Source: Centroberyx gerrardi
Lineage: Eukaryota; Chordata; Actinopteri; Beryciformes; Berycidae
Assembly (NCBI RefSeq): GCF_048128805.1
Contig: NC_135997.1
Coordinates: 17,196,116-17,260,115, forward strand
Reading direction: 5' to 3'
DNA length: 64,000 nucleotides
The notes under the pieces: generated by a model
The model's database searches: none
Told to the model about the DNA's origin: nothing
The model's input: only the letters and a program-made list of their open reading frames with translations
In this document: in pieces, positions 17,701 to 42,300 of the stretch
Layout of the letters: every line of letters starts with the position of its first letter
Position numbering within the stretch: position 1 is the stretch's first letter
Position numbers and translations under genes: made by a program

Positions 17701-20197
17701 GCTTCAACAGCGTTTGAAAGAACATATTTTCACAAGCCAGGTCAGTGACATGAAGTTTAACTGATAAGCCAACAACTCATAAATCATAATAAACTCATTC
17801 GCAGCTGAATGTAACAATACTCAGTCAGTCCATTTTGCACCATGCTTGTGACTTGTCTGTCTTGCATAAAATGCATCTTATTTATATCTATATTTCATTT
17901 ATATTATATAATCAAGCTAAACTATTATGAAAATGAACTAAATTAAGCATATAATTGAAAATAGTGTGCTCCAGTATTTCCTTTGGGTTAGTCTACATGA
18001 AGTGGCCCAGAGGCTCTTATTTACATGACGGTCCTATTTTGGAAAGCACCTGTTCTCCCTGTTTGGAAATGCTGAAGCTCGTGAAATCCCCTTTATTATA
18101 TGAACACTGAAGTTTAAGACTCCGCTTTAAGCGAGTGGAGCTTCTCACCAGAGTGCTTGTGCTCACATTGGTGATGGTGTTTCCACACATTTAGAGAGTG
18201 ATTGAGAGAGCAGACCGAGATGAGCGCGACATAATGGAGTCACTCCCAGGAATAATGGAGAAGGTTACAAACGAGAACCAGGAGCTCAGATTCAAGCAGG
18301 CGCAGATTCAGGTAACCTGCAAGTCCATGTTGCACTTTGAAGACATAAAGCAAATACAGAATAAATATAAATGTTATAACAAATTATGTTTTGGGAGGAT
18401 ACTATGAGTTTCAAATCATTGCTGCAACAAAATACAATTTGCTGCTGCATTTTGTTTTATTGTTCACCTCCTTAGAGGCAGAATGATTGTTTTCATTCAG
18501 TGAACATTTTGACCCAAAAATGAATCACCAGTTTAACCACGACTTTTATGAGCCATAATTCGTTCCTGTCCCCAACCTTTTCCCAATAAGGCCCAGAGGG
18601 AAGACCTGGAAATGCAGCTGAAACAGATGACTGAGGAGAGGACTAACATGGCATCTTGGCAGCAGAAGTTGACAGCTGAGAACCAGCTGTTGAAGAACTC
18701 CCTGGATCGTGAAGAAAAGTCCCTGTCCACCTTGCAGGAGGAACTGAGAAACCTGCGCTCCAAGATCAGAGACCTCGAGGACAGAGGAGCTGGCGCCGAC
18801 TCCTTACTGTCGGAAAACCAGAGGCTGAAAGACCAGCTGGAGGAGGAGAAGCAGCTGATCCGGAGCTTCCGAGGCCAGAGGGAAAGCTTGATGGCCGAAA
18901 TCCAGACACTGAGGAAGGAGCTTCACAAGGAGAGGATGGATACAGACCAGCTGAGGAAAGAGTTGATTCAGCTGAGCAGTCACAGCACTGCGGCCGGAGA
19001 GGAAGCCAACGCAGAGACAGAAGAGCTACAGTCCCGTCTGATGGAGCTGGAAAAGAAACTCAGCTTTGAGCAGCAACGCTCTGACCTGTGGGAGAGGCTG
19101 TACGTGGAAACCAAAGAAGAGAGGGCCAAAGGAGACACTCAGTCCAAAGTTAAAAAAACAAAAGATGGCATGGCAGGGAAGGTGAAAGAGACATTTGATG
19201 CTGTCAAGAACTCTACCAAGGAGTTTGTTCACCACCACAAGGAGCAGATCAAGAAAGCCAAGGAGGCTGTGAAGGAGAACCTGAGGAAATTCTCTGATTC
19301 TGTCAAATCAACCTTCCGCCACTTCAAGGACTCAGCCTCGACTTTCATTAACAAGGCCAGAGGGTCTTACAGCAGGAGATCTGGCGAAAAGGATGCAAAG
19401 GAGTCATGGCAGCACAGGTCCCACAAGCCGCACCACAGACACCCACACAAACCCACAGACGACTCTTTCCAGAGCAACCACAACACTCGAAAATCAGGGA
19501 GTAAAGTTCAGGAAGATCAGGACGCCCACAAAACCGCTCCCAAGGGTTGTTCTGGGGTTTTCGACTGTGCCTACCAAGAATCCATGAGCCTCTTCAACAT
19601 AGCCATGGAGCCGATAAGAGCGGACGAGTTCCACCAGCTCCTTCAAAGCTACCTCCAGCAAGAGGTCGACCACTTCCGCCACTGGAAAGAGCTGGAGAAA
19701 TTCATCAACAACTTCTTCCGTAACGGCGTGTTTATCCACGACCAGATGCTGTTCACAGACTTTGTCAGTGGCGTGGAAGACTACCTGGAGGACATGCATG
19801 AGTATCACGGCCTTGATGATGACGTGTTCGAAGACCTCGACGAGTACGTGTACAGGCACTTCTTTGGAGATACTTACTCAAAAAACTACGGTCCAAGGTA
19901 AGCCTCCTCCCTTCTTCCATAATAATGCTCCAAGTTCTGCATATTTTATATGAGTGCAAAACACATCACTCTGATACTTGGCCATTTACTTTTTATCTGC
20001 AATCCCACAGCAGGCCTTTTGACAGACCAGACGCTAAAGAGGAGCCCCGGGTGAAGCAGCAGCAGCGTAAGCAGCAGAAGGCTCGCCCCCGACCACAGAG
20101 AGAGAAGAAGTGGAGCAGATCAGGAAGGAACGCAGACAGACACATGGCTGACGTCAAAATAGAGCTGGGCCCTATGCCGTTTGATCCAAAATATTGA
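14722..20197 (+). CDS. ccpg1: Cell cycle progression protein 1 (CCPG1), ER-phagy receptor
   Basis: Nine coding exons: 14722-14781, 15161-15275, 15497-15582, 15693-15882, 17003-17320, 17625-17740, 18195-18311, 18591-19897 and 20011-20197. They sum to 2496 bases, or 831 residues (human about 757). The cytosolic N-terminus starts [18 protein letters not shown]14-I17 is the LC3-interacting motif seen in human CCPG1. GSDIETL and HSDIVTL match the two FIP200-interacting regions. Residues near 240 form the single membrane helix ([19 protein letters not shown]). A luminal coiled coil follows ([19 protein letters not shown]), then a conserved C-terminal domain ([47 protein letters not shown] end). In mammals CCPG1 is a UPR-induced ER-phagy receptor. 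The start is the only ATG in the exon and matches human. Confidence 0.96.
15325..15400. repeat. DNA-transposon fragment with 'agacaaaataa' end
   Basis: CAGGGGGTAGACAAAATAAC resembles the end of the larger copy at 27197 (CAGGGGCTGGACAAAATAAT). It is probably a short relic of the same element in a CCPG1 intron. Confidence 0.4.
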
Positions 20198-21190: not shown

Positions 21191-24100
21191 TCAGTGCCTT
21201 TCATAAATAAAGATGCTTCCTCCAACTCTTCCCTCAGGGAAATGAGTATGAAATATCTCTGCTGTCCTCACAAATTTATTCCCTTCCAAAAACGCAGAGA
21301 TTTCCTGGAATGGTAAAAAAAACCAAATGGTAAAATAAGCACAATTATAAGACATTTCCACAAATTATATAACTGTGCAGAATTACCACCTATAAAACAT
21401 CTTACCTTTTCCAAAACATCAAACAAAACCAGGTGAGTCGGCAGAGAGGACTTGTATGGAAATGAAATCCTCAGCCAATTTAGAGGTTCGTCAAAGAATC
21501 TCGCAGCTTCTTCGACATAACCCTCTTCTCCGAGATCTGGAGGACACTCGAGGAACCTCATCCTTATTGGGCAGTGGATGTGGCTGCAAGGAGAACGGAC
21601 CGTCAGGTGCTGCATTTGACTGGCAGGTGTATCCTGATCAAATTATGAGTTGACGGCATTCAAGTGGGTTCTTTAGGTTGGAAAAGTCGGGTCAAGTAAG
21701 ATCCAAGGTAGCAAATTCAACTATATGAGTGTGGCATAAGATAATAATCATTACCATTAAGCAATTTATTTTCCAAATCTGTATTTTGAAAATGCAAAGT
21801 AAATATATTTTCAATACATTTTTGCCACAAGTATTTTGTAGTTTTTTTGATACAATTTTGTGAAGGAATATTTAAACAACAGGAATTATTTTGTTATTAC
21901 TCTAGATTTGTGCATTTAATTGAGCTCAGTTCGAAGCAGGTACGGCTGCATATGAAGGACGCAGGAGAATTTGAAGTGGACAGCAGTGGCACTGAATTAT
22001 AAGCATGAGAAATATCAGAAACACTTCAATTTTAAATAACACAACTCTCCCATGGAATTAAAAAATACCGAACCCCCATTCAAGTTCCATTGTGCAGCTC
22101 CTAACTTGCAAACTGTCCCACTGGTCTGGAGCAGCGTACCTGTAGAAGGGAGTGGAGTGACAGGGCATGAGGAAGAGGACGTCTGGCTGGGGACGGGCCG
22201 GGACGCTGCTGATGTCACACACTGTCTGCAGACGGCTCATGACATCCAGAGTGCCTCGCTGGTGTATCAGGCCGGTATACAGAGCTGGAAACAAGTTGGT
22301 CACCAGCAAGCCGTAGGCAGCAGCTCGCCTCCACGTTTTCAAATTTGCCAAAGATATACCTGTAGTAGCCATTGAGCACAAAAAAAACAAACATACGATC
22401 AATATAAATGTCTTGTCTGGCTGTTCATGACCATGAAAAACTAGACTTTTAATTTGAAATCAGGCACTTACCACAAAACACCATGCAAAACGGCAGAACA
22501 GGATAGATGAATCTGAACTCCTTGTGAGGAAGCAAACTGGATAAAAGAATTCAATATGTCAGTTTGTCTTTATAAAGTGTCTACACTACATGTAACCAGG
22601 GGTAAAAACACAAATACTTTACCTGTAAACCATTATTGTCCAGACTAGCGCTACCAGCAGTATTCTGTATCTTTTTGAAGCTACGGTGCATCCATGAAGG
22701 AAGAAGGGAAGATGAGGACCGATCACAACTGCAAACCCCTGAGTGAAGTACCAGTGCCAGGGATGGGAGCCGTAGAACTCAGCCACACCATGCAGGACGT
22801 TAAACTTCAGGAAGTTGAACTGCACCAGAGTCCACTGTCAAACAGAGGACTACTGTTAGATATGCACTTGACTTCAGAAGAGGCAATTCAATTATTGCAA
22901 TTCACAAATTACTCAGACTCAATTCATAGTATTCTGTTACATCGACACACAGCCCTCTTGGTAGGAAAATAACAGCTGATTGTAATAAATTAAAAGGTGA
23001 TTATAATCAAATGACAGCCAATGAGCTGTGTATATGGTAAAACGCCATATTGGTAGGAAAAGCATGTAACATCATGGGAATACTATAAATAGTTCTTACC
23101 TTGTCATAGAACAGGCAGTCAATTAATGTTGAGATCCCAACAGTCAAAGCCCTGCAAATGAGACAGAGGATTATGGAATACAGATAAAAGGAGAAACTGC
23201 AGAAGAAGCAGAGTGAAAGTACGAACCCGATGGGAACGCAGCGGCGAGTAATGAGTCTGAGCTTGTTGTCTTCCTGCCAGAAATGGTAGATCAGCAGAGG
23301 AAGCCAAACGATCAGGGCTGTCGGGCGAACGATGACTGCCAAGGCGACCAGGCTCAAATATTTTTTACTGCAAAAAAAAAAAAAAACATCAACAATGGTT
23401 TTGTATACAATCTATTTTGGAGATGAATGTGATTCAAAATGAGAAAGGTTAAACGTTCAGTGGGCTCCGACCTGCTGTGTGTTTTGGAGCCTGGCAGGGG
23501 AAAGTAAAACAGAGCCAGAGTAGTGAGCGTCGTCTCCATGGTGTTGGTCATGGTCCGGGTGCAGCAGAACCACGAGAACCAGGAGCAGAGGTGGCAGAAG
23601 AACTGGAGACGCAAACAAGATGAAACAGAGGGTTAAGACTCCATGAAACAACACAAAACACTTCAGTCCTTACACTCAAGCCATAAAATATAAAGCAAAA
23701 GGGGGCTTAACAAAAAAGGTAAATATTTAGAATTAACTTCTGCATGGATGAAAGTATGATACACCAATATGTTTTCTTTGTTGCTCATTATGTTTTGCAT
23801 GCTTTACACCTTCCTTTTGTTTATTTTCTATTTACGGAATACATTCTCTTCATTTTCCTCTTCATTGATGCTTTATATTTAAGTTTTGAGTGCAAGGACT
23901 TTAGCTTTTTGATAAAAAACAAAGTAAGACGATGCCTGTGTATCTTGCAAATGCAGAAGCCCTGAATGGAATCAAAACAGACAAAAAGGGCAGTTTGGTG
24001 AATGAGATGAATTGGAACATAAACAGGCTAAATCTTTACCGTCCACTTTGCAACATCTTGATTTTCCAGTGTTTGGATGAGCAGGTAAAACTTCACATCT

Positions 24101-25191
24101 GCAAACGCAGCCAGCAGAGCTTGAATTATTCGTGGAAGCCAAATCTGCAGAACCGGTCAGACCAGGTTTAGTGAAACAACGTGACCACAAGAAATTAATC
24201 TGGTCATAAATATGCTGATAAAAAAAATTGTCTTAAGTAGTGAAAGATATGGACTTACCAAGAGATAAACTGAGTCATAGTTTATAAAGTGTAATATCTT
24301 GTATATGAATGCAAAGAGGAGCGGGTAGGAGAATCCTCTTATTCCTTCCTTCCATTCCCAGGTCAGATACCCATAAGTGAAACTGTCAAGGTTGTAACAG
24401 CATAATAGTAACAATTATTTAAACATATAATAATAATATTAATGACCAATAGTGCGGAAACGATTAGTCGATTAATCAATTAGTCAGTCAACAGAAAATG
24501 TATCAATTTTGATAATAAATGAATCGTTTTAGTAATTTATCAAATTGCTATGATTTGCTTGCTTTTCTCCATTTGATACCATTACAAAATGAATACTTTG
24601 GATTAATGGCTACTGGTCAGACTAAGTAAGCAGTTTTAAGACATCACTTTGGGCTCTGGCATTTGTTTTACATTTTATAGGCTAAATGATTAATTGATTC
24701 ATTTGATTAAGTTGCATCCCTAATAACCAGTAATAGCAGCACAGTCACAGAGATTATAATCACATTACTTTTCCCCAAAGGATATTTGAAAACCATATGA
24801 TGGGAAACCTCCAGGGACTGCCAGTACTCATCAGGGACGAAGCTGGTCTGGACCAGGAAGCAGTTCACAAGGCGGAAAGCCACACAAAACAGAGCAACGT
24901 TGGCTCCCAAGACACCTGAGGAGTCAATAACATCATTTCAGTTTAGTTTTAAAAAGGTTTTAAGTTATCATCAGTTACCAGATAAACACACACTGGTTTA
25001 TGGAGACAATACTTGTTACCATTATCTTAATCGTTAGCATTACTTGCAGAAAATAAAATGTAACAAATAAGGGGCCCACCATTATTTAGAGGACTTGCAT
25101 CTTCCTTGTTGTATAGTTGGGATTTTCGTTTCCTCAATTTCACATCTTCAACTTTATTCCCAAAGTTTAAGCGCGCGCGAATCGTTTCCAT
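21191..25191 (-). CDS. pigb: GPI mannosyltransferase 3 (PIGB)
   Basis: Twelve exons, 5' to 3': 25080-25191, 24786-24915, 24259-24376, 24040-24144, 23472-23602, 23227-23367, 23100-23151, 22623-22834, 22472-22536, 22140-22359, 21406-21583 and 21191-21304. They sum to 1578 bases, 525 residues (human 554). The protein adds the third mannose to the GPI core in the ER membrane and belongs to the GT22 (PIG-M/ALG9-like) superfamily. Recognised blocks: [16 protein letters not shown] with the luminal PDE acidic motif, [100 protein letters not shown] and [12 protein letters not shown]. Multiple hydrophobic segments fit a polytopic protein. Intron 2 is AT-AC (listed separately). The start ATG fits the family N-terminus. 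Confidence 0.96.
24377..24785 (-). other. pigb: U12-type (AT-AC) intron of PIGB
   Basis: On the minus strand the intron begins ATATCCTTT (24785 down to 24777), the U12 5' splice-site consensus, and ends AC (24378-24377). CCTTGAC (24391-24385) fits the U12 branch site, with its adenosine about 9 bases from the exon. Joining here gives [11 protein letters not shown], identical to the human junction. No GT-AG pair gives an open frame at this junction. Confidence 0.88.
24446..24722. repeat. Fish 'AACGATTAGTCGATTAATC' MITE copy inside the U12 intron
   Basis: The left part has AACGATTAGTCGATTAATC, the middle CACTTTGGGCTCTGG, and the right part ends AAGTTGCATCCCTAA. These are landmarks of a roughly 270-bp MITE common in percomorph genomes whose consensus ends GTTGCAGCCCTAA. 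The copy is strongly diverged. Confidence 0.7.
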
Positions 25192-27575: not shown

Positions 27576-27845
27576 ATGTTTCGACAGAGGATACCCTTCA
27601 CACAGATGGCCATTGCCACAATGCTGGGAGTTGCTGGTGGTGTTTATATTTACAGACCTTATTTTGAGCCTCTGCAGAAGAGCCCAGGACAGCAAAATCA
27701 GGATGTGCCAAAGAATCAGAGTCAATTAGAGGAAAATTATTTGTCAGTCCCAGAGAATCCTGAACAGGCAGAAGCCAGAGGAGCTGCGTCGGAGGCTGGT
27801 GGACTGTCAGAACCAGAGGCCACACCAGAAAAAAGGCCAGCATAG
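27576..27845 (+). CDS. pigbos1: PIGB opposite-strand protein 1 (PIGBOS1), mitochondrial microprotein
   Basis: A single coding exon of 89 residues, starting MFRQRIPFTQMAIATMLGVA and continuing GGVYIYRPYFE. Human PIGBOS1 is 54 residues (MFRRLTFAQLLFATVLGIAG, then GVYIFQPVFE), so the N-terminal 27 residues align without gaps. The hydrophobic run near residues 7-24 is the outer-mitochondrial-membrane anchor. In human cells the C-terminus contacts the ER protein CLCC1 and tunes the unfolded-protein response. The fish tail is about 35 residues longer, acidic and Glu/Pro/Ala rich, and poorly conserved. The exon opens at the acceptor TTCTTCCAG (27510). The gene lies head-to-head with PIGB, as in mammals. 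Confidence 0.9.
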   Translation: MFRQRIPFTQMAIATMLGVAGGVYIYRPYFEPLQKSPGQQNQDVPKNQSQLEENYLSVPENPEQAEARGAASEAGGLSEPEATPEKRPA

Positions 27846-39302: not shown

Positions 39303-42300
39303 GCTCCACAGCAACGAGAAGCCATTTTAGTTCCCCCTCTCTGTAATACTGGTGTAAAATAGGAATGGATTACATTTGATAAGACATCTACGTTCGTGGT
39401 GACATTGATTTTTAACAAAGATAGAGTATATATTGTATTTTATGTTAGGTAAAACTAACATTAACTGCTGACCACTGCCCCACAAACCAGTGCATTATTG
39501 ATAAACTGTTATTGACGTGTTTCTGCTAAGTCAGTACAGAGTCAAGTGCCTTTTGAACACGGGCATTTTCATTTGAATTCATGAAATGAGTCTTTTAAGT
39601 AATTGATTCATATTGGCACATTTATTTCCTGTAATGCCTGGCTTAAATGTCCAACTTTGATCACCGGTTCAATATGCTGATCACATTTCCAGGCATGACT
39701 TCTGCGCTCCATATTGCCTGCCTCATCCTCACCACTCCACAGGGTGCCACAAAGCATGCTGCGATACCAAATATGTAATGTTATAAATATGTGAATACTC
39801 TCTTTACTTGCTGAAACATTAGCATGCATTCACACTGCGAGCAAGGCACTTAGTCCATTCATTTTCTACAGCCAGAGAAACGTTGACTGATGTTAACCAC
39901 GGTCACCTCATTTCCTCTTTGTTGGCGCAGAAAAGTTGGCTGTGGCTGAACTGAAGGGAAACGCTACCCACCAGCAACCGATTATGTACTACTGATGTGA
40001 TACTTGTGTATGTCCAGAGTAACGCTGCGACCTCATTGGCGCTACAGCAAAGAAAACCGTGGCTCAAATTGTCCATCCAGCATTAGCTCGGCAATCTTGC
40101 TAGTGGAATGAAGCCAGAGTTACTTTCCACCTTAGCACTTATGTATTTTGTTTCCTAAATCAACACTTGTGATTATGTTTGCCTGCAGAATGTAAATTAT
40201 GGAATACAATTTGACCAAGCCACGCAATTACAAAATTGGCTCTTCAATGGTTTGATAGTTGGGGTAAATGGGTCACCGATATTGAAAGTAGAAACTGAGC
40301 AGTACCTCAGGAAAACATATTTTTATCTTTATACACTTATTTGACCTTTTTGTGCATTTCTTCATCCTGTTTTATAAATGGATCTCAAAATGCACACATT
40401 CATTTGGGATTTTTTTGTCTGAAACCTGTGCAAAAAAACTGTAAATTTATTTAATAGAAAACAATTCAACACAAGTCTAGTCTGTGAAACTATTCTTCAT
40501 ATTTTATTTTGGATAACTTCAAATTGTTTTGTAGACATGAAATGTCTAGAGAGAATAATGTTACTGTACAGTACTGTAGGCAGCATCAGGTACAGTGAGG
40601 CGGACTTGGATCCAGACTCCTGAATTACTCATTTTTGGTTTTGGTTTTATTCACTTGTCAAACATGCCTACTGTTTTGAATTATACATGACTCAACAGTC
40701 TTTGGGGCTGCTTCCCTTACACTAGATCCCAGATGAGCCCCAAATATAAGTTTGTAGAGTAGAGTTTTGTAGATAAGATATCACGTTACAGAATTGTATA
40801 ACTTTCTATATTGTGGGTGTGAGTAAACAGTCCGGTGAAACTTCCAAAATAGTCATCATTCTCTCATTAGGCTAACTTCTGGGAAATTAAATAACAGTAA
40901 AATTAAACTATTCTATATTGACGGGGATTCCTCCTTAGGGCCACCTGGAGGTCCTCAGACCGCACTTTGAGAAGCATTCACGCTTCATTCCAGTCTGCTC
41001 AGTGTCAGAGCGTCAAAACGGCCTCCTGAGGAAACCCAAGCCAGAGCTTTGAATACTGAAGCTGTGGTTAATAAGCAAATACAACAGTTGAAAAAAACAA
41101 AAAATGAAAATGAGTTGTTCAGGTGCTGCATCCAGGAAGGATTGCTTTAGCATAATGTAAGTTTCTAACTTCTAGGTTTCTGGGCACTAGAAGACTCCAT
41201 TGCTAAATTACATAACCATAACTACATTATTGGATGGAAGTCTCTGTGTTTCAGGTGTTAGTCTGACCTTCATATGTTAGCAGGGGCATGTAGATTGCAG
41301 GGTGTTTTAATTTTTCAAAGCTAATAAACCCACATTTTGGTTTTACATTTTTGCAATTTTTTGGAGTAAGCCTTTGTATAAGTAAGAAAATGAAATGGGG
41401 CTTTTATATCAGACACTTTACCTTCATAGTGAGCATTTAGAATCCAAATGCCCCCTGTACCATTTCTTTGTATATACTGTTGACATTTTACATTAAAAAT
41501 GTGTAACGTATAATTGCACTCAGTAGAAAAAGACATATTATGTGAGAATATTTGTCCTAACTGGATTTAACAGTTTCACACACAAAGGGTTATTTATGAT
41601 ACACTGTCATCTATTCTTGAATAGTATAAGTCCTGATCACATGATATATTTAGTTAAGACTGATCATTAATGTAAACCGATATATATTTCACACTCTCAC
41701 AATTTCAGTCCACAGATTCAAATATTAGCAAAATTATCACTAAAATCTAATTTGTTTGATTATATCATGAAGATTGGCCTGCAATATAGATCTGATATTG
41801 TCAAACATGCCAAACACTTTCATATGCCAAATATGTAAATTATATCTAAAAATAAATGTTTAAATATTTATTTAATCATGTCTTGAAGCCATATCTCATT
41901 TACTTATCTTGGAAACATTTCACAGCCATGTCAAAGGTTCACATCATGTTCTATGACGTAATTAAAAGTTGGTAACTTTTTGAGGGGAGTTTGTGAGGAA
42001 AATGGATGAAAATAAGACTTGAGTCAGTGAGTACAAAGGTGCCGTGGATATCAGGTCCCGTAGCCGCTATTAATCTATTGCATGTTGTTCCTGCAACACA
42101 TAGGACTGTAAATAATAATCGCTTCACCATGATGCAAGTAAAATTTAAGTACTTTTCCAGTACTTTTTCCAATATTATTTTAATAATGCCAAGGATATAT
42201 AAGTAACTACATTTTACATTACATTAATACATCCCATTATATAAACATAGCCAAAAAGAAGATTTTAATGAATGTGACTGGGAAAACTGTAAATTGAGCA

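Follow-up and report, generated by a model that had tools for sequence, protein, structure and literature searches.

A predicted U12-type AT-AC intron in the PIGB gene of Centroberyx gerrardi

The window, a 64-kb stretch of the Centroberyx gerrardi genome, contains a PIGB gene on its minus strand. The coding region (21191..25191) consists of 12 exons, which join into a 1578-nt open frame encoding 525 amino acids. The protein matches the Pfam family PF03901 (Glyco_transf_22, Alg9-like mannosyltransferases) with 379.3 bits and an E value of 3.8e-113. The match extends over profile positions 3-414 of 414, and this full-length domain places the protein among the GT22 / GPI mannosyltransferases. 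We take the subfamily to be PIGB on the basis of the human protein and of a neighboring frame that resembles PIGBOS1. A search of solved structures returned a single match, 9s6t_A ("Mannosyltransferase"), which aligns with residues 154-373 and leaves the junction of exons 2 and 3 outside the aligned part. Relatives of PIGB were not found among bacterial and archaeal genome contigs (70 pattern matches, 0 confirmed) or among viral contigs (14 pattern matches, 0 confirmed). The boundary of exon 1 is less sure than the rest of the gene model, and intron 1 (25079..24916, minus strand) has an odd donor, TAATG|GTGGGC.

Two other open frames lie close to PIGB. The PIGBOS1-like microprotein frame (27576..27845, plus strand, 89 amino acids) is divergent from PIGB, with the two starts about 2.4 kb apart. 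It matches PF23670 with 59.3 bits (cut-off 27); residues 1-52 align with the 54-position profile, and the other 37 residues form an unmatched C-terminal tail. On the opposite side a 429-amino acid frame with coiled-coil-like sequence (18612..19901, plus strand) is convergent with PIGB. It has no Pfam family match, and it resembles CCPG1, which adjoins PIGB in human. The order of the genes and the repeats are teleost in appearance. A comparison of the window with Rfam gave no family at or above the gathering score.

Ten of the eleven PIGB introns have GT-AG termini, and the exception is intron 2. This intron (24377..24785, minus strand) is 409 nt long and in phase 2, and it begins with ATATCCTTTGGG and ends with CCTTGACAGTTTCAC, so that its termini are AT and AC. 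Its 5' splice site, ATATCCTT (24778..24785, minus strand), agrees at all eight positions with the U12-type consensus RTATCCTT. The putative branch site, ACCTTGAC (24385..24392, minus strand), agrees with TCCTTRAY at seven of eight, the mismatch being an A at the first position where the consensus has T. Both consensuses are as given in PMC2831892 and PMC10853781. The AC acceptor occupies 24377..24378 (minus strand), and the candidate branch adenosine at 24386 lies 9 nt ahead of the last intron base. This distance is short, as in the U12 class, yet it falls below the optimum of 11-13 nt given for U12-type introns in PMC3584512, which is a mild point against efficient splicing of intron 2. The phase agrees with the bias of U12 introns against phase 0 described in PMC7367187.

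The other introns of the gene do not combine these signals. Among the ten, the best U12 donor score is 5/8 (intron 10), and the best U12 branch score is 7/8, in intron 6, whose own donor scores 2/8. Intron 2 also has the lowest U2-type acceptor score of the eleven, -2.57 on a matrix that, like the other U2 splice matrices used, is approximate. By the same approximate score, a distinct polypyrimidine tract is absent before its acceptor, which is characteristic of the U12 type.

The protein determines where exons 2 and 3 must meet. Exon 2 (24786..24915, minus strand), which ends in CATATGGTTTTCAA, alone covers PF03901 profile positions 3-37, and exon 3 (24259..24376, minus strand), which starts with TTATGGGTATCTG, alone covers positions 39-78; only one residue is left between them. 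The junction was slid from -15 to +15 with the protein length kept, giving 31 junctions. Just one of these has GT-AG, GC-AG, or AT-AC termini, and it is the AT-AC position described above. GT-AC occurs at one other shift and TT-AG at one, while GT-AG and GC-AG occur at none. Eight joins were also compared by the Pfam score of the N-terminal part of the protein, and the AT-AC join scored highest (185.1 bits), followed by a join with an AT-AG end (176.9 bits) and six GT/GC-AG joins (127.7-167.7 bits). The original prediction is upheld: its intron coordinates, termini, branch motif, exon junction, and 12-exon frame of 1578 nt were all reproduced. Two other products were considered as normal outcomes and rejected: retention of intron 2 brings a translation stop after 106 residues, and skipping of exon 3 loses the frame.

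The donor motif is not significant by itself, because its count is close to the chance expectation. ATATCCTT occurs twice in the 64 kb on both strands together, compared with a mean of 2.23 in 100 shuffles, and at least two copies were present in 66 of the 100. The second exact copy (42198..42191, minus strand) has no exon evident beside it by eye and is probably a chance occurrence. The motif gains weight because it is sited exactly at the junction fixed by the protein. A perfect match to RTATCCTT begins at 3 of 127,984 positions. Among 127,880 random 3' ends, 2,419 (1.9%) have a branch motif of at least 7/8 with its A placed 8-20 nt ahead of them. If the two are independent, the product of these rates puts the joint odds of a perfect donor and a branch motif at a pre-set junction at about 4e-7. 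A looser scan for [AG]TATCCT with CCTTRAC downstream of it within 2.5 kb, in which an acceptor was not required, gave five further places in the window.

The distribution of these signals suggests that intron 2 of PIGB is a U12-type intron of the AT-AC subtype, removed by the minor spliceosome. The sequence signals, the reading frame, and the continuity of the domain are observed directly. That the RNA is spliced at these positions, and by this spliceosome, is predicted from them with a probability of roughly 95%. Recognition of minor introns by the U11/U12 di-snRNP, followed by the action of U4atac/U6atac/U5, is the standard pathway. In PIGB the U11 snRNP and U11-48K would recognize ATATCCTT at the donor, and U12 would pair with CCTTGAC and leave adenosine 24386 as the branch point. 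After recognition by the di-snRNP, U4atac/U6atac/U5 would excise the intron. The exon 2 end ...TTC AA would then be joined to T TAT GGG... of exon 3, producing F-N-Y-G within the mannosyltransferase domain.

A very improbable alternative is that the major spliceosome joins exons 2 and 3 at different boundaries, by removing an intron with GT-AG or GC-AG termini, so that residues near YGYLTWEW are altered. Such introns can be drawn. A scan of GT or GC donors with exon ends from 24900 to 24421, and of AG acceptors as far as an exon start at 24263, yielded 50 pairs that are in frame and open; in the best-scoring of these the first exon stops at 24764 and the following one starts at 24297. The original claim of an unavoidable frameshift under a GT-AG reading was therefore too strong as a general statement, although it is correct for the donor that had been named (exon end 24769) used with the AG at 24384-24383. 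Six of the 50 were run through Pfam, and their scores were lower than that of the AT-AC join by 17 to 57 bits. The best-scoring pair loses YGYLTWEW, and its donor-plus-acceptor score is 0.38, whereas the ten GT-AG introns of PIGB range from 4.62 to 13.75, all on the approximate U2 matrices.

Even less probable is a U12-type intron that ends in AG at 24383 and adds two residues to the protein (VFN-FT-YGY). This join is in frame and open, and it ranks second of the eight tested with Pfam. However, its final G would be just 3 nt from the branch adenosine, compared with the 11-13 nt optimum, and introns with the mixed AT-AG ends seem to be disfavored, both according to PMC3584512. The notion that PIGB is broken at intron 2, as a pseudogene or through an assembly error, and that the U12 appearance is accidental draws on the abundance of ATATCCTT, which as such is no rarer than in shuffles, but it can be practically dismissed given that the 525-amino acid frame is intact over 12 exons, that PF03901 is matched from one end to the other, and that both U12 signals sit at the required junction. 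The U12-type AT-AC intron is thus the only reading examined that has recognized termini, both U12 signals, and an unbroken PF03901 domain, and the original prediction is supported on this point.

Intron 2 probably also contains a decayed transposable element, a MITE that may be hAT-like. The candidate (24450..24722, minus strand) is 273 nt long, has imperfect terminal inverted repeats, and lies between the donor and the branch site. Its terminal inverted alignment score is 19; none of 1000 dinucleotide shuffles reached this value, and the best shuffle scored 18. The 8-mers that flank it (24723-24730 and 24442-24449) are identical at six of eight positions. Together these features fit a hAT-like element in decay. 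A blastn comparison of intron 2 with the window (E up to 0.01) gave the self-match only, and thus no second copy within the window. A MITE between the splice site and the branch point, as originally proposed, is probable from the sequence, but its terminal repeats are degenerate and its target-site duplication is just 6/8.

The analysis fixes the PIGB gene model at the exon 2/3 junction, the spot where a gene finder limited to GT-AG introns would damage a conserved domain. If RNA confirms intron 2, GPI-anchor synthesis in Centroberyx gerrardi would be tied to the function of the minor spliceosome. A further idea, which is very doubtful and extrapolates from signals to regulation at every step, is that the short branch distance and the MITE might make intron 2 inefficient and prone to retention, and that PIGB and hence the supply of GPI anchors could be throttled in this lineage via the minor spliceosome and CENATAC.

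Overall it appears that intron 2 of PIGB belongs to a known class. No paper that mentions PIGB along with U12 or minor introns, or with the minor spliceosome, was found in the literature searched, which did not extend to U12 databases and supplements, and it is likely that the intron has already been listed in U12 resources. U2-type AT-AC introns share its termini, and the donors of that type differ in sequence from U12-type donors. Intron 2 is unlike them in its 8/8 match to the U12 donor consensus, its U12-like branch site, and its U2 acceptor score, the lowest of the eleven. AT-AC introns account for 22% of the U12-type introns of zebrafish and 12% each of those of Tetraodon and Takifugu (PMC7367187, Table 2), suggesting that intron 2 is an ordinary member of its class. 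The A-type (AT-AN) minor introns reportedly depend on CENATAC and have relatively high basal retention (PMC8280824), and intron 2 resembles the CENATAC-sensitive introns of this type in its AT-AC termini and U12-type motifs. A close counterpart is the U12 intron of human SMYD2, for which the Table 1 entry in PMC7367187 shows an ATATCCTTT donor, a CCTTGAC branch core, and an AC end, all as in PIGB. The SMYD2 intron belongs to a different gene and is in phase 1 rather than phase 2, and the base preceding the branch CCTT is T in SMYD2 and A in PIGB.
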